Shown: positions 1,266 through 22,429 of the stretch, piece after piece
Layout: every line of letters begins with the position of its first letter
How positions within the stretch are numbered: the stretch's first letter is position 1
Origin: Akkermansiaceae bacterium
GTDB taxonomy: Bacteria > Verrucomicrobiota > Verrucomicrobiia > Verrucomicrobiales > Akkermansiaceae
DNA: 41,963 nucleotides
Direction: 5' to 3'
NCBI GenBank assembly: GCA_029253285.1
Contig: JAQWZU010000008.1
Span: 1 to 41,963 of the forward strand
The notes under the pieces: model-generated
Told to the model about the DNA's origin: nothing
The model's input: only the letters and a program-made list of their open reading frames with translations
Databases searched by the model: none
Translations under genes and position numbers: made by a program

Positions 1266-4200
1266 TTATTGATCGGCATCTTTTTGAATCACGCGGTAGA
1301 GGCGGCGCTTCTCCTCTCGGGGATGGCTCGATGTCTTGGGCGGACCGTTGTCGATCCATTGTAATCGGGTTCCTCCGGCCACAACATCGGGTGCGACATT
1401 GGTCCAGGTTTCACCGTCATTACTATATTGGATCGTGAAAACCTGGTCGATCTGGGAATCGAACTCGATCAGAAGGTCTCCATTTGGAAGGATTTTTGGA
1501 GGGTCAACATTGACGCCTTCTCCGGCCACTTGTTCTTCTTCGGGGTCGAGCAATTCGATCTTAAAGGTAGCTTCGATTCCTCCCGAGGCATCGGCCTGAT
1601 AATATTCTACGACCAAATCGATGCTTTCACCACTGGCAAGGGCTTGTTTGTAGAGCAGGTAGGAAGTGCCATCGATGGTAGTGCCCTGGGCATTATGCAC
1701 CGTGACGCCATCTGGCAGTTCGTTGACGAGAATACGGAATGAGGGAAGAGTGCCGGGATTGTCGTTGGTGATGGTGATGACTTGCTTGAAGAGTCCTGTT
1801 TGGAAATCCAGTGCGACGGCACCTTGAGGGAGCCTCGTGCTGAAAGGACTGACGACATCAGTCGAGATGATCGCTGTGTCATCGGCAGCGTTAAGGAGAG
1901 TTTCGTTCGCTCCCGAAACGGTGGCTTCATTTTCAATGAGATCGACACCGCCTGCGACGGTCTCCGAGACATTAAAGTAGTAGATGATCGTGGATGAAGC
2001 TCCAACGTCTAGATCACCAACTGTCCAGAGTGAGTCTGCGAAAGAAGTGCCGGGTCCCGCACTGATGGAGTTGACAGTGGTCCCGGTGGGTAAGGTCTCG
2101 CCTATATTGATTGCCACGGCCGAGGCGTCACTCGGGCCATTGTTCACGACAGTGATGGTGTGGAAGAGGTTTTGAGGAAGATTGAACCCGGCCAGAACGG
2201 GGTCGCGGGAGTTCGTCGCCGAGATGGCGAGATCGACCTCTCGGATGATGTCTGCGGTGGTGGTCGCTGATTCATCGCCGGGATTGATTTCCCGCTGGTT
2301 GGCAGCGCTCACAGCAGCGGTGCTGGTGACTCCTGGAGAAGTTATTGCGGCGGATGGGCCAACGGTCAGGACGACCTGAAGAGTCTCCGAGACTCCGACT
2401 GCGAGGTCTCCGAGGCTCCAAACATCATCTGAAAAGGAACCAGCGGTAGGTGTGACTGAGTCAATCGTAATTCCGTCCCCAAAATTCAGGCTCTCGGTAA
2501 GCTCGATTCCCGTGGCTGCAAGTGGGCCTTGGTTCAAAACCTCCACGGTGTAGATGAGGTTGCCTGTTCCCGAGCCAGCCACGATCGGGGCTTCCGGGCC
2601 ACTTTGAGTGACGACTAAATCGGAACCGGCAACGATCGCCGTTGTTTCTGTCGCAGAATCGTTTGAATTGTTACTGTCGGTTCCCAAGGCTGATTCAAGA
2701 ATTGAAGTGCTGCTGATGGAGCCACCGTCCGGAGCGTCAGCCCCGACGGTGAGATTCACGGTGAGAGTGGCAGTTTCTCCGAATGGAAGGTCGAGGCTCC
2801 AAAGACCGTTGGGGTCGTTGGCGGGAGTGAATGACCCGACGCTGGGGATGATGGAATCCACACTGACCCCGGCGGGAAGGTTCAGGGCTTCTCGAATTCC
2901 AAGGTTGGTGGCATCGGAGGGTCCTGAATTGCTGGCGGTGATCGTGTAGACTAAATTTCCCGGTCCGGTGGCGGCTAGGACGGGCTCGATTGGCCCGGTT
3001 GTATCCAAGGCAATATCAAAGACATTGTTAACGGATGTAAACTCGGTTGCGGAGTTGTCGGAGTTGTTGGAATCAAGTTGATCAACCGAGGTGAGGATGA
3101 CCGTGCCTGTAATTGCATTGTTTCCAGATACGGTGTTCCGTTCCACGCTGTAGGTGATGGTAAGAGTTGCCGACTCACCTGAGAGAAGAGTTGGGATTGA
3201 CCAATCGGATTGATCGAACGAGCCAAGGCTCGTGGTTGCGCTGACCATTGAAGCTCCAAAGGGAAGTGTTTCGCTCTGATCAATAACGATGTTTGTCGCG
3301 GTCGATGGCCCGCCATTGAACGCGGTGATGACGTAGGTGAGGTTTTCGGGGCCGGAACCGGCAATGACTATCTCGGTGGAACCGTCAACGCTGAGTGCAA
3401 TCGCGACGAGAGGTTGGATATCGATGGTATCGCTTGCCGTTCCGCTATTACCGAGAGAGCTGGTGAGTTCGCCGCTTGTGTTAGCAAACTCGCCACCTTC
3501 GATACTAGTGACATTGACGGTAACTTCACAGATCTGTTCTGGGGGGGCCGTTCCCCCGGTGTAGGAGATAGTGCTTGTTCCGCTGACTGCAGAGAGCGTT
3601 CCTCCCTGACAAGTTGTGGAGGAGCCGGTTGGAGTGGAGAGAATCAATCCGGCCGGGAGTTGGTGATTCAGAGTGATATTTTCCGCAGGGAGCTGGGATC
3701 CGCTGTTGTCGATCGTGAAGGTCAGGGTGGAATCTTGGCCGGCATTGATGGCGTCGGGGCCAAAGTTCATTGAGAAAGCCGGAATGACCGGAGCGATCAG
3801 CAAGGTGTCGGTCGCGGGAAATCCTACCAAAGTCGATCCGATGACTTCTGTTGAGATGAGGCTGGTTGTGTTGAAGTATTCACCAAAGGAAGTGGCTACC
3901 GGGATTTTTACTCCTACTTGAAATGAGCATGTTTGTCCGGGCGTGAGTTGGCCTCCGCTTAATGACAAAACGTTGCTACCAGCGAGGGCTGAATTAGGTC
4001 CGCAAATTCGAGTAGGAGTTCGTGGAGTGCCGATTTGAACATCATCGAAGAAGACCTGCATCACCTCGGAGCCCGAGTTTGATTTGTTGTTGTAGCCACC
4101 GAGCAAGATTGTGTGTTCGCCCGCACCAAGGGAAATGTTGGTTGCGAAGGTCTGCCAGCCCGTATCCTGATCAACTCCGGCCCCACCTGAAAATTGTGCA

Positions 4201-6188
4201 AGTGAGTTGTTGGCGCCGTTGCCATAGCGAATACCATTTAATTCAAAAAGGGCCTGCCCGGATTCATCGCTCTCGAATGTTTCGTCAAAGATAAGCCGGT
4301 ATCGGAGACTGACCGGAATTACTCCGGCTTCATCAACGGTGAAGGTGCGTGACCACCCGCCGGAGCTTGGGGGGTTGAGGAAACCTGTGAAGAAGTTTTT
4401 GCCTCCCATGGTTGCGCTGATGCCGCCGCCGGTAAATCCGCCGACGGGATCAAGGACACCATCTGCGGTCCCGGCGTCGTTGGTTCCCTCGAAGGTGTCG
4501 TCTGCGTAGCTGAATCCTCCAGTTGGAGAGTCCGATCCTGGGATGAGATTCAGTGAAAATCCAACGTCACTGCTATCGAGAGTGGTTTGGTGTACTTCGA
4601 CGGCAATAGTGTTTGATCCAGCGGCAAGTAATCCTACGAGATTGACCGGAGAAATGACCTGACTGGATTCGTCACCGAGTTCTGAGAGGGTGGTTGTTGA
4701 AACCTGTCCGGCAGGCATTTGAGGTGATCGGTAGACTTCCTTGCCGTTAATATAGACGATGGCACCGTCGTCGAAGACGTGCTCGATCAGCCAGTTGGGA
4801 ATGTCAGCTTGAGTGGCATCGAGATTAAAGTCCTGACGGAAGAGGTAAGTGGTTACGAGGTTCTCTCCGTTTGGCGCGGCATCAATGCCATCAAGTATAG
4901 CGGGAGTTCCGGGAGGGAAGGCGTCGACTTCACCTGCCTGAAAGGGAGCATTTCCGGTTTCCCAAGGACCGATGGTAGACGTTGATGTGTCAAAGGTGGC
5001 GTCATTCCAAACGTTTCCAGAACCATCGACAGGGTAGTCATCATTTCTGCCATTTTCGTTTTGGAGTTCGTCAAGGTAATCCCAAGTATTACTCAGAATG
5101 ATGGGGGCGTTTCCGCCGAAGCTCGCGTTAACAAAATAGCCTCCATCATAGGGGAGATCCACCGCGATCGCTCCGGGCAGCATGGCGTCGAGATTGTCAG
5201 TGAAGTTGATTTGCGAGAAGGTCTCACTCTGGCTGTTATTGGTGATGGAAAACTCCAGTGTGGCGGTTCCGCCGGGTCCAACTGAGTCCTCGAGAAAATT
5301 TTTGGAAAAAGAAATGTTGGCGAGATCCTCGGGAGGGATCACTTCGAGAATGGCACAGGCGCGCCCGGAGGATACGGGTTGAGAGTTTTGGAAGCTTGAA
5401 GTGATGTCACCCGACATGCTGAAGTTTGATCCCGCAGTCACGCCGACGACATCGAGGGAGAGGGTGCAGCTTTGGCCCGCAGCGAGAGTTCCGCCACTGA
5501 AGGAGATTTGTTGGGAGCCTGCAATCACTGTGAGTGTCGCCGTGGAGCAGCTGTTGGCAATGTTAGCCTGGTTTGCCACCACGATTCCCGGAGAGAGATC
5601 ATCGGTAAAAGAAATCCCGAAGGCATCGACTTGGGATTGATTTTGAATAGTATAGTTGAGCGTCGTTTGTCCACCGAGCTGAATTGGGCTGGTGGTGAAG
5701 AATTTCGAAAACCCAAGGGAAGGTCCGTTGACGGGCGCTCCGACTTGAATCGTGGCATTTCCGCTGTTTCCGGTAATTGAGGTTAGATCGCTTGTTGTCA
5801 GGTCAAAGGGGCCCGACGCTGTGAGAGTGATTCCGACTCGGGCGGAGCAAGTGGCATTGGGGGCAACGGTTCCTCCGGCGAGGGAAATTGTATCTCCTCC
5901 ATCGGGCGCGCTGAATGTTCCGCCGCAATTGCTAATGGCTATGGCGGGATCGGTTAGAGCTACTCCGTTGGGTAAGTTGAGCGTGAAACCAAGATTGTTG
6001 GCCGCGACCCCGCTGTTATTCTGGATTTCAAAAGTGAGCTCAGCGCAACTTCCGATTCCAACGGTCTCGGACGATATACTGAGGGAGAAGGAAGGTGGTT
6101 GAGTCTGAGCCCCTGCTGAAGAGAGCAGGGCAAATAGGAGAGTAAATGAAGAGAGAAAGCGACGGAGGAAGAAAGAATGGGCGTTCAT
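1266..6188 (-). CDS. Giant secreted DUF11-repeat protein
   Basis: A 1640-residue secreted protein, probably a cell-surface or extracellular adhesin-like structure; function unknown. A signal peptide covers residues 1 to about 27. Immunoglobulin-like repeats follow: Cys-containing repeats at about 32-150, 155-285 and 290-800, a further one at 805-925, then four DUF11-type repeats from about 928 to 1500, each with a YTITxxNxGPSxA-like core. Each early repeat carries two cysteines about 25-30 residues apart around a SxxGGT strand, suggesting one disulfide per repeat. The third repeat is split by an insertion at about 346-727 that looks like one or two jelly-roll modules (VFDDGAIVYINGKEV; FFDDVQIGT). 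The C-terminal 100 residues (FTIQYSNDGETW and a final RLYRVIQ) resemble the C-terminal module common on Verrucomicrobia secreted proteins. A beta-barrel gene follows immediately. Confidence 0.8.
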   Translation of the reverse strand: MNAHSFFLRRFLSSFTLLFALLSSAGAQTQPPSFSLSISSETVGIGSCAELTFEIQNNSGVAANNLGFTLNLPNGVALTDPAIAISNCGGTFSAPDGGDTISLAGGTVAPNATCSARVGITLTASGPFDLTTSDLTSITGNSGNATIQVGAPVNGPSLGFSKFFTTSPIQLGGQTTLNYTIQNQSQVDAFGISFTDDLSPGIVVANQANIANSCSTATLTVIAGSQQISFSGGTLAAGQSCTLSLDVVGVTAGSNFSMSGDITSSFQNSQPVSSGRACAILEVIPPEDLANISFSKNFLEDSVGPGGTATLEFSITNNSQSETFSQINFTDNLDAMLPGAIAVDLPYDGGYFVNASFGGNAPIILSNTWDYLDELQNENGRNDDYPVDGSGNVWNDATFDTSTSTIGPWETGNAPFQAGEVDAFPPGTPAILDGIDAAPNGENLVTTYLFRQDFNLDATQADIPNWLIEHVFDDGAIVYINGKEVYRSPQMPAGQVSTTTLSELGDESSQVISPVNLVGLLAAGSNTIAVEVHQTTLDSSDVGFSLNLIPGSDSPTGGFSYADDTFEGTNDAGTADGVLDPVGGFTGGGISATMGGKNFFTGFLNPPSSGGWSRTFTVDEAGVIPVSLRYRLIFDETFESDESGQALFELNGIRYGNGANNSLAQFSGGAGVDQDTGWQTFATNISLGAGEHTILLGGYNNKSNSGSEVMQVFFDDVQIGTPRTPTRICGPNSALAGSNVLSLSGGQLTPGQTCSFQVGVKIPVATSFGEYFNTTSLISTEVIGSTLVGFPATDTLLIAPVIPAFSMNFGPDAINAGQDSTLTFTIDNSGSQLPAENITLNHQLPAGLILSTPTGSSTTCQGGTLSAVSGTSTISYTGGTAPPEQICEVTVNVTSIEGGEFANTSGELTSSLGNSGTASDTIDIQPLVAIALSVDGSTEIVIAGSGPENLTYVITAFNGGPSTATNIVIDQSETLPFGASMVSATTSLGSFDQSDWSIPTLLSGESATLTITYSVERNTVSGNNAITGTVILTSVDQLDSNNSDNSATEFTSVNNVFDIALDTTGPIEPVLAATGPGNLVYTITASNSGPSDATNLGIREALNLPAGVSVDSIIPSVGSFTPANDPNGLWSLDLPFGETATLTVNLTVGADAPDGGSISSTSILESALGTDSNNSNDSATETTAIVAGSDLVVTQSGPEAPIVAGSGTGNLIYTVEVLNQGPLAATGIELTESLNFGDGITIDSVTPTAGSFSDDVWSLGDLAVGVSETLQVVLTVGPSAAITSPGVTSTAAVSAANQREINPGDESATTTADIIREVDLAISATNSRDPVLAGFNLPQNLFHTITVVNNGPSDASAVAINIGETLPTGTTVNSISAGPGTSFADSLWTVGDLDVGASSTIIYYFNVSETVAGGVDLIENEATVSGANETLLNAADDTAIISTDVVSPFSTRLPQGAVALDFQTGLFKQVITITNDNPGTLPSFRILVNELPDGVTVHNAQGTTIDGTSYLLYKQALASGESIDLVVEYYQADASGGIEATFKIELLDPEEEQVAGEGVNVDPPKILPNGDLLIEFDSQIDQVFTIQYSNDGETWTNVAPDVVAGGTRLQWIDNGPPKTSSHPREEKRRLYRVIQKDADQ

Positions 6189-11939: not shown

Positions 11940-12242
11940 GTGAATGGATGGAATGTGTAAGGTCTTTGGCTTGCCAGTGCCTCGAGCTTGTCTTTGCCAA
12001 AGGTATGCTTATTGAGGAGTTCTTTCGATCCGGCGCTACCGGAAAACTTTATCAAACGAAGAGTCAACGATAGGATTGAATCCATAATGTTGAGAGGGGG
12101 ATCTTCGCGGATCTCTTCCATAGGAAATATGGACTGGTTCTGGGAGCATGTGATGAGTCGTCTTTTCTCGCAATTCCTATCCTGAGAGCTTTTTTGTCGA
12201 TCCCTTGTGCTGGTTTTCTTAAAAGCAGTGTCAGACATTATC
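11940..12242. other. Intergenic region without recognised gene
   Basis: About 300 bases between the htpG terminator and the first sulfatase. Open frames exist on both strands (65 codons plus, up to 146 codons minus), but none resembles a protein I know. The minus-strand frame runs through the htpG terminator and the start of the sulfatase gene. No clear promoter was identified. Confidence 0.5.
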
Positions 12243-13760
12243 GTGAAACAAAGCAAAGGGATTAGAGAGGTTGGCAGGGTCGTGTTATTGGTGGGCTTTT
12301 GTCTCTCCCGATTAATGGCCGAGAGCAGAAAGCCCAACATTATCTGGATTATGGCGGAGGATATGGGGACGGATCTGGAGTGCTATGGCACCGCTGGTGT
12401 AAAGACACCAAATCTCAACAAAATGGCCAGAGAGGGCGTGCTTTATGAAAGAGCCTATTGCCCGAACCCCATATGCTCGCCTAACCGTTCATCGATGATG
12501 GTGGGTGTTCATCAAACTGTGATTGATGCTCACCATCACCGGAGTAACCGGGGCGTTCCTTTAAAAGCTCCCTACAAGCCCATCACATCGTGGCTCCGCG
12601 ATGCCGGATACAATTGCTTACTCGGTCATGACGAGGTGATGCGGAAAGGGAAGAAGACAGACTGCAATTTCGAACACAAAGCGGTTGGGACTTGGGATGG
12701 GAAAAAGAAATTTGGGCTTTTTGATAAGATTGGAAGCTTCACGGCGACAGACCAACCATTCTTTAACCAAATTCAACTTGTTGTTACTCATCGCGGCGAT
12801 TGGTGGAATGGTGTCAGGAAAGCATCGAAGCATCCGGTGTCTTTAGATGAGATCGAGCTTCCGCCGTCCTTCGCAGATACCCCTGAGATTCGTTATGATT
12901 GGGCCTGCTATCTGGATCAGGTGGAATACATGGATAACGAGGTCGGAATGTTGATGGAGAGTCTCAAGGAGCAGAAGCTCGACCAAAACACCGTTGTGAT
13001 TTTTATCGCTGATAACGGTCGCTGTAATCTACGGGGTAAGGGATACCTTCATCAACCGGGTATTCACATTCCTATGATTATTTGGGCTCCGGGAATGGTG
13101 AAAGCGGGAACGGTTGTCGAAGAGTTGGTCACTACGACGGATATCTCGGCGACCGTATTGAGTTTGGCTGGCGCAAAGATCCCCGACTACATAACGGCCA
13201 GGCCACTCATTGGGATAGGGAAATCGGAGTATCGCCAGTATGTGCGCTCGGCCCGGGATATTTGGGACGAGATCGATGAATGCTCTCGTAGCATCACGAC
13301 GGCGGAGTTTAAGTATATTCGGAACCATATGCCTGAAGTTCCCTGGGCGACCGACCAGGCGTATTTGGAAATTAACCGTCCGGCCTTGCACGTCATGCGG
13401 AGATTGAAGCAGGAGGGGAGGCTGAGCGCGCGGGAATTGACCTTCTTTGCTGATCAAAAGCCGATCGAGGAGCTGTATGATTTAGCGAAGGATCCCGAAG
13501 AATTGAATAATCTGGCTAAAAATTCCGAATATGCTCCTGTGCTGAGAACGATGCGCGCTTATGAAGCCCAGTGGCAGATGGCGAATCACGACTTGGGCTT
13601 GGCTGACCTCGGGAGACGTAAACCAGAAAAGTGGCTTGCGGCTGAGCGTGCGCGTGCTGGAATCAAGAAGAACGAACCGGAACTCTGGAAGCGCCTCGAA
13701 GCTGGCGAATTGATGGAGACCCAGACCTGGATGAAGAAATACAAATCACTCAAAAAATGA
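12243..13760 (+). CDS. Secreted sulfatase 1
   Basis: Type I sulfatase (alkaline phosphatase superfamily) that would hydrolyse sulfate esters or N-sulfate from polysaccharides in the periplasm or outside the cell. The sulfatase signature is CSPNR (Cys78 from the GTG start), whose cysteine would need conversion to formylglycine; the usual fourth residue Ser/Thr/Ala is Asn here. The first metal site reads AEDMG instead of the commoner ADDxG, and DNGR near residue 260 supplies the second metal site. The segment with three histidines (AHHHRSNR) resembles N-sulfoglucosamine sulfohydrolase-like enzymes, but substrate assignment is uncertain. I chose the GTG at 12243 because it gives a clean signal peptide ending LMA-ES; an ATG at 12207 is also possible. 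The stop overlaps the next sulfatase start by four bases (ATGA). Confidence 0.85.
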   Translation: MKQSKGIREVGRVVLLVGFCLSRLMAESRKPNIIWIMAEDMGTDLECYGTAGVKTPNLNKMAREGVLYERAYCPNPICSPNRSSMMVGVHQTVIDAHHHRSNRGVPLKAPYKPITSWLRDAGYNCLLGHDEVMRKGKKTDCNFEHKAVGTWDGKKKFGLFDKIGSFTATDQPFFNQIQLVVTHRGDWWNGVRKASKHPVSLDEIELPPSFADTPEIRYDWACYLDQVEYMDNEVGMLMESLKEQKLDQNTVVIFIADNGRCNLRGKGYLHQPGIHIPMIIWAPGMVKAGTVVEELVTTTDISATVLSLAGAKIPDYITARPLIGIGKSEYRQYVRSARDIWDEIDECSRSITTAEFKYIRNHMPEVPWATDQAYLEINRPALHVMRRLKQEGRLSARELTFFADQKPIEELYDLAKDPEELNNLAKNSEYAPVLRTMRAYEAQWQMANHDLGLADLGRRKPEKWLAAERARAGIKKNEPELWKRLEAGELMETQTWMKKYKSLKK

Positions 13761-15322
13761 AAAAGAACCTAATCAGCTTAACCGCCTTGGTATTGCTCGC
13801 GCAAACCAGCGCCTTCGCAGAAAAACGTAAACCCAATATCGTCGTCATCATGGCCGATGATCTCGGCTATGGAGACGTGTCGTGTTACGGCGCGACCGAA
13901 CTTAAAACGCCTCATATCGACAAGCTGGCTTCTCAGGGTGTGAAGTTCACCAGTGGCTACTGCTCGGCGTCAACCTGCACTCCGACCCGATACTCGATGC
14001 TGACGGGGAATTACGCTTTTCGAGGGAAACGTACCGGGATTGCTCCCCCGAATGCTCCGGCGATTATCAAGCCGGGAGTCGAGACGATTGCTTCAATTCT
14101 TCGGCGTGGTGGATACGCAACTGCGGTGGTTGGGAAATGGCACCTTGGATTGGGTGCGGAGGGAGAGAATGGTAAGGATGGCGGACCTGATTGGAATGGC
14201 GAATTAAAGCCGGGACCTTTGGAGATTGGATTCGATAGCTGTTTCTTGCTTCCCACGACCAACGACCGTGTTCCGCAGGTGTACGTCAAAGATCACCACG
14301 TGCTCAATCTTGACCCCAAAGATCCTCTTTGGGTGGGTAGAAAGAAGCCCGAAGGCGAGCATCCCACCGGAGTGTCTCATCGCGACACCTTGAAAATGGA
14401 CTGGTCCCACGGCCACAATCAGACGATTCATAATGGGATCAGCCGGATTGGGTTTTACACCGGAGGGCACGCCGCCCGATTCCGTGATGAAGACCTCGCC
14501 GACAAGTGGGTCGAGCAATCGAACCTCTTTATGGAAGAGAATAAGGATAAGCCCTTCTTCCTTTTCTTCTCGGGACACGATATTCATGTGCCACGAATTC
14601 CTCACGAGAGATTTCAAGGGAAAAGCAAGTTGGGTTACCGTGGGGATTCTATTATTCAGATGGATTGGTGCGTGGGGGAAGTAATGAAAACTCTTGATCG
14701 CCTGAAGCTGGCTGAAAATACCCTCGTGATTTTCTGTTCCGACAACGGTCCTGTCATGGACGATGGTTACAAAGATGATGCTCTGGAGAAACTTGGGGCG
14801 CATCGTGCGGCCGGTCCCTATACCGGAGGGAAATACAGTGTGTATGAAGGAGGAACCCGCACGCCCTTCATCACTCGCTGGACGGGTAGGATTCAGCCCG
14901 CAATCAGTAGCGAGATGGTCTGCACCATCGATATGGCCTCCAGCTTTGCTAGACTTGCCGGACAGACTATTCCTGATGATCAATGTGTCGATAGTCAGAA
15001 TATTCTCGGAGCTCTTCTCGGAGAAAAGGGAGCCAAGGGGCGCGATCATTTGGTTCAACAGGATAATGGCGCTCGTGGAACTTTCGGACTGCGCGTGGTC
15101 TCGGACAAGGGGGATTGGAAATTACACCGTCACGATAAGAAGTCGTCACGGAACACTGTGGTGGAAAAGAAACTCGCGAATTACAAAGTCCCGCAATTTC
15201 AGTTGTTCGATTTGAGTGAAGATCCGGCTGAGAAGAAAAATGTCATGAAGGGGAATCCTGAGATTGGCGCTGAGTTGAAAGCCAAGCTACAGAGCATCAT
15301 TGATGCAGGACGCTCCCGCTAG
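13757..15322 (+). CDS. Secreted sulfatase 2 (arylsulfatase A-like)
   Basis: Type I sulfatase with a signal peptide of about 21 residues (cleavage after AFA). It has a canonical metal site (MADDLGYGD), formylglycine motif CTPTR with Cys74 followed by YSMLTG, a VVGKWHLGLG segment with catalytic Lys and His, SGHDIHVPR, and CSDNGP carrying the Asp-Asn metal ligands. At 521 residues it is full length. It starts within the stop of the preceding sulfatase, so the pair is translationally coupled. Substrate unknown; arylsulfatase A-type members in this phylum act on algal or host sulfated glycans. No sulfatase-maturating enzyme is encoded in the window. Confidence 0.92.
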   Translation: MKKNLISLTALVLLAQTSAFAEKRKPNIVVIMADDLGYGDVSCYGATELKTPHIDKLASQGVKFTSGYCSASTCTPTRYSMLTGNYAFRGKRTGIAPPNAPAIIKPGVETIASILRRGGYATAVVGKWHLGLGAEGENGKDGGPDWNGELKPGPLEIGFDSCFLLPTTNDRVPQVYVKDHHVLNLDPKDPLWVGRKKPEGEHPTGVSHRDTLKMDWSHGHNQTIHNGISRIGFYTGGHAARFRDEDLADKWVEQSNLFMEENKDKPFFLFFSGHDIHVPRIPHERFQGKSKLGYRGDSIIQMDWCVGEVMKTLDRLKLAENTLVIFCSDNGPVMDDGYKDDALEKLGAHRAAGPYTGGKYSVYEGGTRTPFITRWTGRIQPAISSEMVCTIDMASSFARLAGQTIPDDQCVDSQNILGALLGEKGAKGRDHLVQQDNGARGTFGLRVVSDKGDWKLHRHDKKSSRNTVVEKKLANYKVPQFQLFDLSEDPAEKKNVMKGNPEIGAELKAKLQSIIDAGRSR

Positions 15323-15327
15323 TTTTC

Positions 15328-16698
15328 ATGAAAATCCTCACAACCATATCCTTTGTCGTCTGCGGGGGTATTTTGTTTGCAAAGAATCCTAAAAACATTG
15401 TCCTGATTATGGCCGATGATATTGGGATTGAGTGTTTCGGTTCCTATGGAGGGACTTCTTACAAAACTCCCAACATCGACCGGTTGGCTTCGACGGGTTT
15501 GCGATTTACCCATGCGTATTCCCAGCCCTTGTGCACTCCGACTCGTTTGGAGATTATGACGGGGCGGGAAAATCATCGTAATTGGATGTATTTTGGTATC
15601 ATGCCGCCGAAGGAGAAGACCTTTGGGCACATGATGCAGGGTTTTGGTTACAAGACCTGCATGGCGGGGAAGTGGCAGTTGCAGTCGTATGATCCGCCTG
15701 ATTTTCCAAATGCCGATGAACGTCGGGGCAAGGGGATGCATCCAAAAGACGCGGGCTTTGATTCCTATGCGCTCTTCCATTCTCTCCATACCGAGGACAA
15801 GGGCTCGCGCTATGCTGATCCGACCTACCTGTCGGATGGGGAGTTGCACAAGGAGTTGAAGGGGCAGTATGGCGAAGATCTCTCAGTGGACTTTTTGTTG
15901 AAGTTCATGGGGAAGAACAGGGATAAGAAGATGTTTCTCTACTATCCAATGGCCTTGCCTCATTGGCCGATGAATCCAACGCCGAGTTCCGAGGCGTGGA
16001 AAGATTCTTCCCGCCGGCTGGAAGCTGATGAAAAGTATTTTCCGGATATGGTGGAATACATGGACACCATCGTGGGTCGCTTGGTGGATGGAGTCGAGAA
16101 GCTGGGGCTCCGAGACGACACCTTGATTCTTTTCTATTCAGATAACGGAACAGATCAACGAATCCATTCCCGGTTTATGGGAAAGAAGGTGCAGGGTGGA
16201 AAGAACCGCACTAGCCAAACCGGGATTCGTGTTCCTTTGATTGCGAATTGGCCGAATGGGATCGAATCGGGATTGAATTCTGATCTTGTGGAATCGTCGG
16301 ACTTTCTTCCGACGCTGGCAGCTCTGGCGGGGAAGAAAGTTCCTTCAGATTGGCAGATTGATGGGATGAGTTTTGAGCCTCAGTTATTTGGTGACAAGGG
16401 ACCTGTGCGAGACTGGGCTTTCTTCTGGTATGATCCTCGTCCGGGCTGGGATAAGGAAAAATTTTCCCGATCCATCTTTGCGCTGGATCATGACTACAAG
16501 CTTTTCTCAGATGGGCGGATGTATGAGATTTCAGGTGTAGATTTAAAGGAAGAACAATTGGATCTCTCCAAACTGACACCAGAGGCCGAAGTGGCTCGTA
16601 GAAAACTCAAAGGTGCGATTGCGAAAATGATGAAAGGTCCGATTTCGGCTGCTGCCCAAATTGAGTTCGATAGTTATGGCCGCCCGGTGAAAAAGTGA
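15328..16698 (+). CDS. Secreted sulfatase 3
   Basis: Type I sulfatase of 456 residues with a short signal peptide (to about residue 18, ending LFA). Metal site MADDIG, formylglycine motif CTPTR (Cys69), AGKWQL (Gln where His is commoner), and YSDNGTD as the second metal site. It is the third gene of the tandem cluster, starting 5 bases after sulfatase 2. The GKWQL variant differs from the GKWHLG of many arylsulfatases and may mark a different subfamily. It converges on sulfatase 4 across a 62-base gap without an obvious terminator. Confidence 0.9.
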   Translation: MKILTTISFVVCGGILFAKNPKNIVLIMADDIGIECFGSYGGTSYKTPNIDRLASTGLRFTHAYSQPLCTPTRLEIMTGRENHRNWMYFGIMPPKEKTFGHMMQGFGYKTCMAGKWQLQSYDPPDFPNADERRGKGMHPKDAGFDSYALFHSLHTEDKGSRYADPTYLSDGELHKELKGQYGEDLSVDFLLKFMGKNRDKKMFLYYPMALPHWPMNPTPSSEAWKDSSRRLEADEKYFPDMVEYMDTIVGRLVDGVEKLGLRDDTLILFYSDNGTDQRIHSRFMGKKVQGGKNRTSQTGIRVPLIANWPNGIESGLNSDLVESSDFLPTLAALAGKKVPSDWQIDGMSFEPQLFGDKGPVRDWAFFWYDPRPGWDKEKFSRSIFALDHDYKLFSDGRMYEISGVDLKEEQLDLSKLTPEAEVARRKLKGAIAKMMKGPISAAAQIEFDSYGRPVKK

Positions 16699-16760
16699 GG
16701 AAGGACTAAAATAGAGCAGTGCTCAGATAGTGAAATCCATCTCATCGCAAGAAAATAGGA

Positions 16761-18212
16761 TCAGAGTCGAGGTTGATTGAAAGGAGAGCTTGGGACTTTT
16801 CCGGAGGCCTTGCTTTGGAATTGTTTGCGGAGTTTTGAGATGATCGCTTTGGCCTCTGCGTCGGGATTGATGGCGAGATTATTGAATTCCATTGGGTCTG
16901 CGGCATGATCGTAGAGTTCGACTCCTTCCTTGCCTTCATTCCATTCGCTGTAGCGCCACCGTTCGGTTTTGATGCTTCGGCCCATGACGGGAGTCTTAAG
17001 GCGTTTGTCGGCGGGACGGAGGATTTGCGTAATGGCTGAGCTATCCCATCTGGCGATGGGATTAGTCAGAAGGGGTGTGAGGCTTTGTCCGGCCAGTTCC
17101 TGGGCCTTGGGTTGAGGGAGTTTAGCGAGGTCGACGAGGGTCGGGTAGATGTCTACGAATTCGACAACGCGTGGAGAGGCCAGGCCGTTGCCTTTGGCTC
17201 CGGGGGAGCGGATGATGAGAGGGGTTCTGGCTCCTTGCTCGAAGAGGGTGCGTTTTTGCCAGATGCCATTATGTTCGCCCAGATGGTATCCGTGGTCACT
17301 CCAAAAAACAACGATAGTGTTGCCGGCGAGTCCATTTTTTTCGAGAGCATCGAGCATGCGTCCGACTTGAGTGTCAATGAATGAGACACAAGCATAATAG
17401 GCTTGGAGGGCTTTGCGACAGGTGAGTTTGTCGAGGTTGTAATGCGGGACTGGATTATTGTGAGCGAAGGCCGCGGTGGGAATGTCATCGCGATCATCTT
17501 TTGGTGCGTAGGGAAGACGGATCGTGTCGAGCGGGTAGAGCTCGAAGTATTTCTTCGGCGCGACGAAGGGCGTGTGGGGCCGGAAGAAGCCGGCTGCGAC
17601 GAAGAAAGGTTCATCCCGTTTTTCAATCATGAGTTTGATCGCTTCGGTGGCGATCATGCCGTCGGTTTGTTCTTCGTCATTACCATCGGCGGCGAGCCAG
17701 CTAAGGGCACCGCTGATCTTGCGGTGCGGTTCGGCATTGAAGACGAGGTGTTCGTCGGTTTTGTCGCGGCCGATGGGATTGATGACGCGTTGCCATGACG
17801 GTTTGTCATCAAAGCCATCGGTGCCGATGCTGGCGGGGACGTTGTAGTGGTAGATTTTACCCACACGGGACACGTCATAGCCATTTTGAATAAAATGCTG
17901 GGAGAGGGTGATGGCATCGGGGACGGCAGTGCGAAAATGTTCGTCGAGGTCGTAGACTTTGATTTGGTCGGGCCGGAGCCCGGTCATGATGGAGGCCCGG
18001 CTGGGGTTGCAGAGTGGGAGTTGATTGTAGGCCCGGTCAAAGCGGACGCCCTGGGCGGCGAGGCGGTCGATGTGGGGTGTTTTGACGACAAGATTTCCGT
18101 AACAACCCAGAGACGCAGCGAGATCATCGACGGCGATGAAGAGGACGTTGGGTTGTTTGGCTGCCGAAGTGAGAGTGCAGGCGAGAAAGAGAAGGCGAGT
18201 GATCATGTGCAT
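16761..18212 (-). CDS. Iduronate-2-sulfatase-like sulfatase
   Basis: Type I sulfatase of 483 residues with a short N-terminal signal (to about residue 18). The metal site is [13 protein letters not shown], the formylglycine motif is CNPSR with Cys68, and then [10 protein letters not shown] and RVGKIYH follow. These features, with the [16 protein letters not shown] segment and [11 protein letters not shown] near the second metal site, are typical of the iduronate-2-sulfatase branch. It probably removes 2-O-sulfate from uronic acid or related sugars, though the true glycan is unknown. It lies 17 bases downstream of a truncated cytochrome fragment on the same strand and faces the three-sulfatase operon. 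Confidence 0.92.
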
Positions 18213-18644: not shown

Positions 18645-20075
18645 GTGCCCAAGGTATTTATTAAGACTTACGGATGACAGATGAACGAGCGTGATTCTGA
18701 GCAGGTTGCCCAGACATTTTCCGAGCGTGGCTATACTCTGACTCCTACCGAGCATGATGCGGATGCGATTCTGATCAATACCTGCAGTGTGCGGGATCAG
18801 GCCGAGCAGAAGGCTTTGGGCAAGATGGGCATGATGGGAAAGTATCGTGATCAGCGGGCGCACGTTGTCTACGGTTTCATGGGATGTATGGCCCAGAGTC
18901 GCGGAGAGGAGCTTTTTAAGCGGGTGCCGCATCTTGATTTGGTGGTGGGAACGCAAAAGTATCATCGCGTTTTTGACTATGTGGACAGTATCTTGAATCG
19001 TCGTCTTGAGACGAGGATGGATGAGGTGGGTGCAGAGTTGGTAACCCAGCGAGTGGAGGACGAAGTGGTGCAGGTTAATGCTGATAAGGTGATTTCTGCG
19101 CGCGTGGTTGATACCGAGGAAGAAGTGGGAAGTCAGAACACGATTCGTGATCACATTCCGCGGGAGACCCGGCGGGCGACGGCTTTCGTGAGCATCATGC
19201 AGGGATGTAATATGCGTTGTTCCTTTTGTATCGTCCCGGATACGCGCGGAAAAGAACGGGGCCGGCCGATTTCGGATATTGCGGAGGAGGTGAAGAGGCT
19301 GGTTGGCGAAGGGGTGCGTGAAGTGACTCTATTGGGACAGATCGTGAACCTCTACGGTCGGACCGAATTTGATAAAGTGGATGGAAAATCACCCTTCGTA
19401 CAGTTGTTGGAAGAGGTGCACGAGATTGGCGGGCTGGATCGGATTCGTTTTACGAGCCCGCATCCGATTGGTTATCGTGATGATTTGGTAGAAGCGTTTA
19501 CCTATTTGCCCAAGCTGTGCTCTCACATCCACTTTCCGATGCAGAGTGGTAGTGATCGGATTTTGAAGGCGATGCGTCGCCCGTATAAGAATGAGAAATT
19601 CCTGACGATCTGTGACAAGATGAAAGCAGCCCGTCCGGATCTCGCAATCACGACCGATATTATCGTAGGCTTTCCCACTGAGACCGAGGAAGATTTTCAG
19701 GATACTATTGATTGTGTTCAGCATGTGGGATTCGACAATAGTTTCATCTTTCGCTATTCGAAACGGAAAGACACTCCGGCAGCGGAGATGGACGGGCAGT
19801 TGAGCGAGTCGGTGAAGGAGGAGCGGAATCAACGTCTGCTGAAGGTTCAGGACGAGATCACGAAGGCCAAGCATGAGAAGTTGATAGGCACGACCCAGAC
19901 GATTTTGTGTGAGGGGCCTAGCAAGACCAACAAGGAGCGTTTAAGTGGCCGAACGAGCCAGAACAAGATTGTCATCTTCGACGGAGACGCCGAACGGATG
20001 ACAGGCGAGATTTTGGATGTGAAAATCGAGGATTCGACCGGATTTACCCTCTACGGGACACCGGAAATCATGTGA
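18645..20075 (+). CDS. miaB: tRNA methylthiotransferase MiaB, probable selenoprotein
   Basis: MiaB adds a methylthio group to N6-isopentenyladenosine-37 of tRNAs, using two 4Fe-4S clusters. Starting at GTG 18645 the frame reads VPKVFIKTYG, then TGA (18675-18677), then QMNERDSE. This is exactly the conserved MiaB N-terminus, with TGA at the position of the first auxiliary-cluster cysteine (residue 11). The other two ligands are present: Cys47 (NTCSVRD) and Cys81 (GCMAQ). The radical SAM motif is intact (Cys188, Cys192, Cys195), and a TRAM-like C-terminal domain is complete. Read through, the protein has 476 residues. Starting at ATG 18681 gives 464 residues and loses the first ligand. A SECIS-like hairpin follows the TGA, so selenocysteine is the favoured reading; a sequencing error (TGC to TGA) or a real truncation are the alternatives. 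Confidence 0.88.
18675..18714 (+). promoter_or_regulatory. In-frame UGA and putative bacterial SECIS hairpin
   Basis: UGA at 18675-18677 is followed after 18 bases by a hairpin: UCUG at 18696-18699 and GC at 18701-18702 pair with GC at 18708-18709 and CAGA at 18711-18714. There is one A-C mismatch (18700/18710) and an apical loop AGGUU (18703-18707). The UGA-to-loop distance is 25 bases and the second loop base is G, both within the published bacterial SECIS model. The top of the hairpin, GCAGGU, is identical to that of E. coli fdhF. The match was made by eye; no folding program was run. Confidence 0.6.
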
Positions 20076-20130: not shown

Positions 20131-20748
20131 ATGAATGGCGGACCCCATCCTTATCAGGAATTATCTCTTAGTAGCACCGGAATGGTGCTGGGGATCATTT
20201 TGTCGGCATTATACGCGTTTTGCCTCTTCAAATCCGAAGCTTCAATGGCTTGGGCGAAGAAGGCGCATCGGAATCACCAGGCTGGCACTTATGCCATGGC
20301 GATCGGAATGGTTTGGTTCTGGTTGTTGGTTGCGCCGAATGTGAAGGGGTCACTTTCGTTTATGGGGTCCCTATCGATGGATCTTGGTGAGTTCACCAAA
20401 TTGAAACCTTATCTCCAACTGGGAGTCCCTTTGTTCTGTGTTGGGATGATCATGTATGTGAGGGAGTTTTTGTTTGTGCGTGGCTTGGGGCTTTGCCTTC
20501 TGATGGGCGCGGCTCCAGTTCTCTATGCGGCAGATTTTGAGACGGCACCGATGAGAGTGCTTATGCCGTTGGTAGCCTATGGAATGATTATCAAAGGCCT
20601 CTTTTATGTCGGAATGCCTTACCTCTTCCGCGATGGAGTGAGTTGGGCTACGGCGACGAAAGGTCGCTGGAAGGTGCTTTCTTCGGCCGGGTTGGCGTTG
20701 GCCCTCGTGATTTTAGGATGCTCACTCACAATTTGGCGTGGCTATTGA
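20131..20748 (+). CDS. Multi-spanning membrane protein, unknown
   Basis: A 205-residue protein with about six hydrophobic segments (near residues 16-34, 53-70, 92-108, 114-132, 140-160 and 183-201), so an inner-membrane protein. No catalytic motif or known family was recognised. It lies between miaB (55 bases upstream) and the pyrophosphatase gene, whose start overlaps or closely follows its stop, suggesting co-transcription. The ATG at 20131 has only a distant AAGGAG about 20 bases upstream. Confidence 0.75.
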   Translation: MNGGPHPYQELSLSSTGMVLGIILSALYAFCLFKSEASMAWAKKAHRNHQAGTYAMAIGMVWFWLLVAPNVKGSLSFMGSLSMDLGEFTKLKPYLQLGVPLFCVGMIMYVREFLFVRGLGLCLLMGAAPVLYAADFETAPMRVLMPLVAYGMIIKGLFYVGMPYLFRDGVSWATATKGRWKVLSSAGLALALVILGCSLTIWRGY

Positions 20749-20755
20749 TCGGATC

Positions 20756-22429
20756 ATGACTCCGCCCTGGTATGTTCTGGGGCACCAAAATCCTGACGCG
20801 GATGCGATCTGCGCGGCGATAGGGCATGCGGCATACCTCAAGGCTCTGGGTGAGTCTGATGTGGTGGCGGCACGTTGCGGCGTGGTTCCTCCGCGGGTGA
20901 AGATTGTTTTGGAGAAGGCGGGGTTGGAAGCTCCGCCCCTGGTCGATGATGTTCGGCCGACGGCGGGGTCGATTAGTCGCAAGAGCGTCGTGGCGGTGAG
21001 GCAGGATGATACTTTCCTAATGGCTTATCGGTTAATGGTCGATCACGGGGTAAGGGCGGTTCCGGTTTTGAACAATGGCGGAGAGATTCGTGGATTGTTG
21101 CACTTTTTGGATTTGTTGCAGTTACTTCTTCCGCCAGCGACTGATGGTCGGGATGTGAAGCTTCTTCGGGCGAGTCTCGAGAATATTGCTGCGACTCTCG
21201 GAGCCAACGACCAGTTTGGTGCTGACTGTATTAATGAGGAAGAAGATCTCATCATGATGGTGGGAGCTTCCAGTCAGGATACCGTGAAGCGGCGTCTGCA
21301 AGTGGCCAAGGAAGAGGGGAATGTTCACCAATATATGGTGATTTGCGGAGATCGTCCGGTGGTGCATCAACGAGCGGTTGAGTATGGTGCGAGAGCTTTG
21401 CTTGTGACGGGCGGTTATTCGCCTGATCCCGAACTCGCAGCACGCGCCAAGGAGGAGGGGATTGTCATATTATGCACTCCGCACGATACGGCAACTGCGG
21501 TAAAGTTGGCGCTTTGTGCCCGAAAGGTGCGCAATATTATTAGCGACGATTTCATGGCGCTGGCTTCTAACCGGGTGGTGAGCCGCTTCAGTAAAGAAGT
21601 GTCAAATTCAGATCAGGACCTCTTTCCCGTCGTCGAGGCAGGAACAAGGAGATTGATGGGCGTCTTTTCAAAGTCCGACCTGGTTGATCCGCCGCGAACG
21701 CGGCTTTCTCTGGTGGATCACAATGAGTTTTCACAGGCTGTTAAAGGCGTGGAGGAAGCCAAGATTATTGAAATTCTGGATCACCACCGCTTGTCGGGGG
21801 ATTTGACGACGCGTGATCCGGTCCGCTTTATCAATGAGCCGGTCGGGAGTTCGTCAACGATTGTGGCCCGTCGTTTTCGGGAAAAGGGATTGGAGCCGGA
21901 CGCTTCAGTGGCGCTTTGCCTTTGTGCGGGGTTGGTGTCGGATACCTTGAATCTGACGTCGCCAACGACCACGGAGGTGGATCGCGAGATTCTAAGCTGG
22001 CTCTCAGCTCTGGCTGGTGTTGATGCGGATGAGTTTGCAGAGGCTTTCTTTGCGTCCGGTTCTCTTCTGCTTCACGCGGATGCCAAGGCAATCGTGGGCA
22101 CAGATCGGAAGGAATTTAACGAAGAGGGAGTCTTCCTCAGTCTTTCTCAAGTTGAAGAAACAAGCTTCAAAGGTCTTTCCGATCGAAAGGAAGAATTGGT
22201 GGAAGAATTGGAGCGATTGCGTAACGATAAGGGATATGATCTGTGCGCGCTTATGGTGACGGATATTCGTCGTCACGACAGTACGATCCTTGCGGTTGGA
22301 CACGACAATTTGTTGATTAAATTTCCCTTTGACAGGGTGGCAACGACAGAGTTCTCCGCTCCAGGTGTCGTGTCACGTAAGAAGCAGCTTTTCCCGGCGG
22401 TTTGTGAAGCGATCCGCCGGATGGGCTAG
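20756..22429 (+). CDS. Family II Mn-dependent pyrophosphatase with CBS and DRTGG
   Basis: Hydrolyses inorganic pyrophosphate to phosphate in the cytosol. The DHH-type catalytic half is split by a regulatory insert: metal motif HQNPDAD at residues 10-16, CBS-1 about 75-125, DRTGG-like domain about 140-250, CBS-2 about 255-315. Then DHNE (321-324), DHH (342-344) and the DHHA2 substrate-binding domain with SRKKQ at about 540-544 follow. In known CBS-pyrophosphatases the insert binds adenine nucleotides, and diadenosine polyphosphates activate those with DRTGG; that behaviour here is inference. I chose ATG 20756 (seven bases after the previous stop); a GTG at 20738 in frame would overlap the previous gene. 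The stop TAG shares CTAG with the convergent argH stop. Confidence 0.9.
   Translation: MTPPWYVLGHQNPDADAICAAIGHAAYLKALGESDVVAARCGVVPPRVKIVLEKAGLEAPPLVDDVRPTAGSISRKSVVAVRQDDTFLMAYRLMVDHGVRAVPVLNNGGEIRGLLHFLDLLQLLLPPATDGRDVKLLRASLENIAATLGANDQFGADCINEEEDLIMMVGASSQDTVKRRLQVAKEEGNVHQYMVICGDRPVVHQRAVEYGARALLVTGGYSPDPELAARAKEEGIVILCTPHDTATAVKLALCARKVRNIISDDFMALASNRVVSRFSKEVSNSDQDLFPVVEAGTRRLMGVFSKSDLVDPPRTRLSLVDHNEFSQAVKGVEEAKIIEILDHHRLSGDLTTRDPVRFINEPVGSSSTIVARRFREKGLEPDASVALCLCAGLVSDTLNLTSPTTTEVDREILSWLSALAGVDADEFAEAFFASGSLLLHADAKAIVGTDRKEFNEEGVFLSLSQVEETSFKGLSDRKEELVEELERLRNDKGYDLCALMVTDIRRHDSTILAVGHDNLLIKFPFDRVATTEFSAPGVVSRKKQLFPAVCEAIRRMG

Follow-up and report, generated by a model that had tools for sequence, protein, structure and literature searches.

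In all methylthiotransferases, the auxiliary (UPF) [4Fe-4S] cluster has the motif CysX35-36CysX32-33Cys (PMC5352715, a review). Sulfur incorporation involves this cluster (PMC10702137), and the titles of PDB entries describe both MiaB and RimO with a pentasulfide. The characterized MiaB (TIGR01574; Bacteroides uniformis, 7mjv-7mjz) shares with the MiaB reported here its domains, its radical-SAM motif, and the spacing of the three auxiliary-cluster positions, but in the latter the first auxiliary-cluster cysteine is replaced by an in-frame UGA, proposed to encode selenocysteine (Sec), with a hairpin behind it. We tentatively refer to this variant as Sec-MiaB.

Selenoproteins with links to iron-sulfur clusters have been listed before, namely HdrA, the ferredoxin HgcB, CopZ-type (2Fe-2S) proteins, and an Fe-S cluster domain protein (PMC13188914, Table 1). 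They resemble Sec-MiaB in having Sec in an Fe-S protein, but are not methylthiotransferases. Sec reportedly ligates a cluster in HdrA, but a printed case of this was sought in the literature (including PMC9012536 and PMC6288185) and no such passage was found. The same inventory lists two radical-SAM selenoproteins, the TIGR04167 radical SAM domain protein (motif GxxU) and TrsS (NF045646), which combine radical-SAM with Sec as Sec-MiaB does, but belong to other families, neither of them being among the 25 listed family matches of our protein. The first-pass annotation, made without database searches, had considered the role of Sec here unusual and knew of no established precedent, and this holds only in part, as Sec in Fe-S proteins has the precedents above. 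MiaB itself is absent from the inventory, which covers 119 prokaryotic selenoprotein families and subfamilies (PMC13188914, May 2026); the terms “MiaB” and “methylthio” occur neither in its text nor in PMC12013277, PMC9312934, and PMC2398784. Sec-MiaB was not found elsewhere in the literature searched (including PMC4807772), a search that was not exhaustive and did not cover RefSeq annotation.

The window, i.e., the whole stretch of 41,963 nucleotides analyzed here, is contig 207 of an Akkermansiaceae genome of 4.3 Mb (96.7% complete, 224 contigs). On its plus strand, miaB spans 18645..20075 when the UGA is read through, and encodes 476 residues from a GTG start to a TGA stop at 20073-20075. 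Its N-terminus reads VPKVFIKTYG-U-QMNERDSEQ, where U is the TGA at 18675..18677 (codon 11), and the frame is open on both sides. The first-pass annotation had placed the TGA exactly at the first cysteine of TYG-C-QMNERDSE, in a frame running from GTG 18645 to the MiaB stop without a break, and this was confirmed. Against TIGR01574, the equivalog model of MiaB, the read-through protein reaches 471 bits, above the curated cut-off of 355.3, and is therefore a member of this family. As expected of a MiaB, it contains the UPF0004, Radical_SAM, and TRAM domains, and the CX3CX2C radical-SAM cluster motif is present as Cys188, Cys192, and Cys195 (19206..19229, plus strand). An AlphaFold2 model is mediocre (mean pLDDT of 72.5, weak in the radical-SAM core); MiaB structures rank first when it is searched with Foldseek, and ligand geometry is beyond its quality. 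The closest MiaB relatives, in two other genomes (G017 and G002), are 98-99% identical.

Codon 11 is aligned with a cysteine of the solved MiaB 7mjv and RimO 4jc0. The second and third residues of the auxiliary-cluster motif, by residue position and the published motif, are Cys47 (18783..18785) and Cys81 (18885..18887), both on the plus strand. The resulting spacing, U11-X35-C47-X33-C81, matches CysX35-36CysX32-33Cys exactly except that the first residue is encoded by UGA, so that the fit is full only if Sec counts as Cys.

Several other genes in the window were noted. Just upstream of miaB (12207-18212) are four consecutive sulfatase genes (PF00884), three on the plus and one on the minus strand. 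The protein encoded at 20738-22429 has DHH, DHHA2, DRTGG, and CBS domains, and we take it to be a CBS-regulated pyrophosphatase. An open frame of 1640 codons lies on the minus strand at 1266-6188.

In 89 of the 97 genomes searched, our own included, MiaB was matched at a threshold of E 1e-60; the other eight were left out of the counts. Codon 11 is TGA in 32 of the 89 and TGC or TGT in the remaining 57, and no other stop was ever seen there. An in-frame UGA aligned to a cysteine of homologs, in a frame open on both sides, is one of the marks of a bacterial selenoprotein gene, and it is present here. In the genus of the window, TGA is found in 23 of 24 matched genomes (the exception is G010), while three genera (g9, g12, and g16) contain both the UGA and the Cys states, and one UGA case (G076) sits in another family of the order. 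On a tree of the 89 proteins built with the site masked, parsimony requires 9 state changes, at least 5 of them on supported branches. In addition, a pattern scan of 84,980 species genomes, limited to MiaB with a motif like T-x-G-UGA-Q-M-N-x-x-D-S/T, returned 66 stretches, of which 59 are verrucomicrobial UGA-containing MiaB. In 49 of these 59 records, the frame downstream of the UGA continues without a stop until MiaB ends; in the other 10, it is still open where the fetched stretch stops. Cultured species account for two of the records (Rubritalea marina DSM 17716 and R. profundi SAORIC-165). The 59 scan records overlap with the 32 UGA genomes, many being identical, and the two counts are not additive.

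The seven non-verrucomicrobial stretches of the scan were all excluded from the counts. Three of them (L161, L172, and L177) have no MiaB frame. Two from Elusimicrobia, L133 (1-987) and L145 (1-2771), have an N-terminus resembling that of MiaB in which UGA stands at the cysteine, but the frame breaks 24 and 49 residues on, respectively, and their genomes have no selA match. The last two, L139 from a Hyphomicrobiales MAG and L154 from a Terriglobus MAG, have UGA at the same codon in an open MiaB frame, in genomes without a selA match, and the stem is absent by eye. The UGA in L139 and L154 is probably a sequencing error or a nonsense mutation, and the two serve as a natural negative control.

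These two cases bear on the explanation that the UGA in the window is itself a sequencing error, a nonsense mutation, or the mark of a pseudogene: they show that such cases exist, with neither a selA match nor a hairpin, and the assembly of the window is in 224 contigs. Against this explanation, the same UGA occurs in 32 genomes and 59 scan records with intact frames, including two cultured species, and the hairpin and the Sec machinery described below are conserved. It is thereby refuted for the clade and can be all but dismissed for the window copy. The support for the TGA itself, which the first-pass annotation had proposed to check, comes from its recurrence in 31 of the 88 further genomes where MiaB was matched and in the two Rubritalea species, not from read-level data.

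A second explanation is that translation starts at the internal ATG (Met13, 18681..18683, plus strand), giving a 464-residue MiaB without the first cluster ligand, the UGA being no more than the stop of a short leader. In favor of it, this ATG lies four bases past the UGA codon, a mechanical list of open reading frames begins the gene there, and the part from ATG 18681 alone still scores 447 bits against TIGR01574. The region upstream of the UGA argues otherwise. A start codon lies exactly 10 codons before the UGA in all 54 distinct UGA sequences (46 ATG, 8 GTG). A comparison of all pairs at codons 2-10 finds 6158 silent and 556 amino-acid differences; with random single changes, the numbers are 4515 silent, 14368 amino-acid, and 1117 stop. 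Codons 2-10 are thus constrained as protein, which leads us to reject both initiation at ATG 18681 and a pseudogene. Further, across the 89 genomes the stop is always UGA and the alternative always Cys, and UGA is confined to genomes with selA and/or selB. We thus regard the internal start as very unlikely, and the fallback of the first-pass annotation, a truncated enzyme lacking one cluster ligand, is rejected by the same constraint.

With translation through codon 11 as the preferred reading, the UGA could still be decoded as another amino acid, e.g., Cys or Trp, by a reassigned code or by near-cognate read-through. Some bacterial codes do read UGA as an amino acid, and position 11 accepts Cys. 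However, TGA terminates 5 of the 15 window genes with confident families, miaB included, which speaks against reassignment; a tRNA-Sec with anticodon TCA is present; and this explanation would leave the hairpin and the sel genes unaccounted for. We consider it very improbable, and insertion of Sec remains the preferred reading.

The machinery for Sec insertion is found in the same genome as the window, with bit scores of 490.6 for selA, 274.6 for selB, and 373.5 for selD, and a tRNA-Sec (score of 54) with the anticodon TCA (UCA). The search for selA, selB, selC, and selD that the first-pass annotation had proposed therefore found all four. The genome also encodes FdhA (733.4 bits). Like miaB, both selD and FdhA contain one in-frame TGA each, but they belong to listed selenoprotein families (PMC13188914) and are not radical-SAM proteins, and the Sec of FdhA binds Mo/W. 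Across the 89 genomes, selA and/or selB exceed the cut-off in all 32 UGA genomes (both in 29) versus 20 of the 57 Cys genomes (Fisher p 1e-10, uncorrected for kinship), and the 37 genomes with neither gene all have Cys. The first-pass annotation had listed relatives with an intact Cys codon and no Sec machinery as a possible refutation; since those genomes lack the machinery, Cys is what would be expected there, in contrast to the UGA genomes, and does not refute the reading. Of the 32 UGA genomes, 28 have selD and 27 have tRNA-Sec above the cut-off of the respective model. Several of these genomes are incompletely assembled, and the tRNA-Sec score lacks specificity, in that genomes without selA or selB also pass. 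ARAGORN identified a tRNA-Sec with anticodon tca at all nine loci, from seven genomes, that were submitted to it. The anticodon loop of the tRNA-Sec gene, TTTCAAAA, has A36-A37-A38 (anticodon UCA, followed by AA), which is the substrate context of MiaA/MiaB. A TGA-type formate dehydrogenase (E 1e-60) was seen in 20 of the 32 UGA genomes. No such match at this threshold was found in the other 12, including R. marina (G055, 95% complete), G046, G049, G058, and G018, where MiaB may be one of few selenoproteins keeping the Sec trait, a possibility only, as no other selenoproteins were sought.

The bacterial SECIS hairpin lies just 3' of the UGA and has G in the first two loop bases. In the window, a SECIS-like hairpin (18696..18714, plus strand) starts 18 bases after the UGA, with a stem of 18696-18702 paired with 18708-18714 and the loop AGGUU at 18703-18707; with the T of TGA numbered 0, the stem is 21-27 with 33-39 and the loop 28-32. 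Six of its 7 stem positions are paired, and the remaining one is an A.C mismatch, so that the hairpin proposed in the first-pass annotation, with its loop, distance, and single mismatch, was upheld. According to that annotation alone, its top, GCAGGU, equals that of the E. coli fdhF SECIS. The UGA-type selD of the same genome has a similar hairpin after its UGA, with GCAGGUC at the top (by eye).

At least 6 of the 7 pairs are formed in 54 of 54 distinct UGA sequences versus 7 of 55 distinct Cys sequences, and all 7 pairs in 39 of 54 versus none of 55 (L123, with only 70 bases available, was left out). The loop is AGGTT in 49, AGGTG in 3, and AGGTC in 2 of the UGA sequences, thus with the expected G in all 54, as judged by pair and loop counts and not by a dedicated SECIS predictor. 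At positions with the same amino acid, the silent codon choice is skewed between UGA and Cys sequences, with GTT in 49/54 versus 6/55, GAG in 54/54 versus 26/48, CAG in 54/54 versus 33/54, and GCT in 44/54 versus 4/38. Among neighboring codons outside the stem, those for Q and N are unskewed, and that for D just before the stem is skewed (GAT 48/54 versus 10/55). A single pair shows a two-sided change (UA 18, UG 13, CG 12, and unpaired 4 in 47 distinct rows). When the partner strand is slid along, pairing is lost (97% of cells in place versus 13-42%).

On its own, the hairpin of a single gene is weak evidence, because the fold of the window copy (-6.1 kcal/mol, z -1.2) is no better than that of the Cys-type L019 (-7.2 kcal/mol, z -1.2), and the peptide by itself already favors part of the pairing, with 6 pairs reached by 9% of synonymous recodings under uniform codon usage and by 38% under pooled local usage, which includes the hairpin codons themselves. 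For five other UGA sequences, folding energies are between -10.3 and -12.4 kcal/mol, with z between -3.3 and -3.9. Of 500 shuffles, 13 score as high in covariation, and one pair with a two-sided change arises in 141. Contrasts between Sec and Cys lineages on the tree give only five supported independent pairs, which are too few: the hairpin differs in the same way in 2.4 and shows no difference in 2.6 on average (p 0.5), while GTT goes the same way in 4.0 and the other way in 0.2. The argument from the hairpin thus rests on its conservation in every UGA sequence, and not on the window copy. L019 (G010:C149), the only Cys-type MiaB in the genus of the window, keeps 6 of 7 hairpin pairs in a genome with selA and selB, and looks like a recent reversion from Sec to Cys, which we put forward tentatively.

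No second MiaB was matched in the source genome, and the sole other methylthiotransferase match is a RimO on contig 184, with the cysteine. RimO is not a selenoprotein in the genomes searched: 43 of 58 gave a match, none of them with an internal stop, although 3 of these matches fall short of the N-terminal cysteine. Searches of mobile elements recovered six MiaB relatives in viral contigs (26-40% identity) and none in the plasmid collection searched. One of the viral sequences, at 1001-2287 of a 57 kb IMG/VR contig (L209), is a nearly full-length MiaB relative with 40% identity.

The position and frame of the UGA, its conservation, the conserved hairpin with its silent-site constraint, the protein constraint upstream, and the presence of the Sec machinery are all shown by these data. 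From them, we infer with considerable confidence, in the absence of protein or selenium data, that translation of the gene yields MiaB at full length, with the UGA at codon 11 read as Sec in place of the first auxiliary-cluster ligand. The two parts of this reading differ in strength. Insertion of Sec at codon 11 is very well supported, if still inferred without a protein or selenium measurement, while ligation of the auxiliary [4Fe-4S] cluster by Sec11 is likely by residue homology, without a structure. The proposal of the first-pass annotation that Sec takes the place of a cluster-ligand cysteine is supported to this extent. An alternative to the latter part is that Sec is inserted but is not a permanent cluster ligand, acting instead as a redox switch, or as a Se/S carrier in cluster rebuilding or sulfur donation. 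Most uncharacterized selenoproteins are probably redox-functional (PMC13188914), and the pentasulfide in the PDB titles of MiaB and RimO points to a rich sulfur chemistry. Against this, the position is one of only three motif cysteines (PMC5352715) and is Cys in all 57 Cys-type genomes, and we consider such a role unlikely compared with cluster ligation.

We infer from the known bacterial pathway that SelB, loaded with Sec-tRNA-Sec(UCA), would bind the hairpin 18 bases after the UGA, and that the ribosome would insert Sec at the UGA rather than terminate. By homology, Sec11, Cys47, and Cys81 would then hold the auxiliary cluster with one Se and two S protein ligands, the cluster being the predicted carrier of the methylthio group, and Sec-MiaB would still make ms2i6A37 on tRNAs. 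Since this is the only MiaB matched in the genome, ms2i6A formation is likely selenium-dependent, an inference, with tRNA modification untested. What advantage Se may confer is a matter of conjecture, and our data do not separate the candidates: a cluster with an open coordination site might be tuned in its redox behavior or made more tolerant of oxygen, or the donated sulfur might be released and rebuilt more easily.

As far as the literature was searched, Sec-MiaB very likely represents a selenoprotein family not described before and, at the same time, a new form of MiaB, with Sec insertion and ligation being inferred. It also exposes an annotation gap, in that a mechanical list of open reading frames begins miaB after the UGA. 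If our reading is true, a widely conserved tRNA-modification enzyme would join the selenoproteins, with Sec at a sulfur-donating [4Fe-4S] cluster. It would be a natural Se-substituted form of an enzyme for which the mechanism of sulfur insertion is not yet fully established, and Se would provide a spectroscopic handle (Se EXAFS, 77Se) on that cluster. In these verrucomicrobia, mostly a marine group, ms2i6A37, a general feature of translation, would be tied to a trace element, and a basic step of translation would be selenium-dependent; cultured Rubritalea species are available for testing.

A bolder reading, which we offer only as a possibility, is that Sec-MiaB is a selenium gauge for translation, as the sole MiaB found needs Sec and tRNA-Sec itself has A36-A37-A38. 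In that case, the available selenium would determine ms2i6A both on the tRNAs served by MiaB and on the tRNA-Sec that decodes MiaB's own UGA, forming a feedback loop. The Se ligand would, in addition, make the sulfur-donating cluster chemically distinct from that of every characterized methylthiotransferase.
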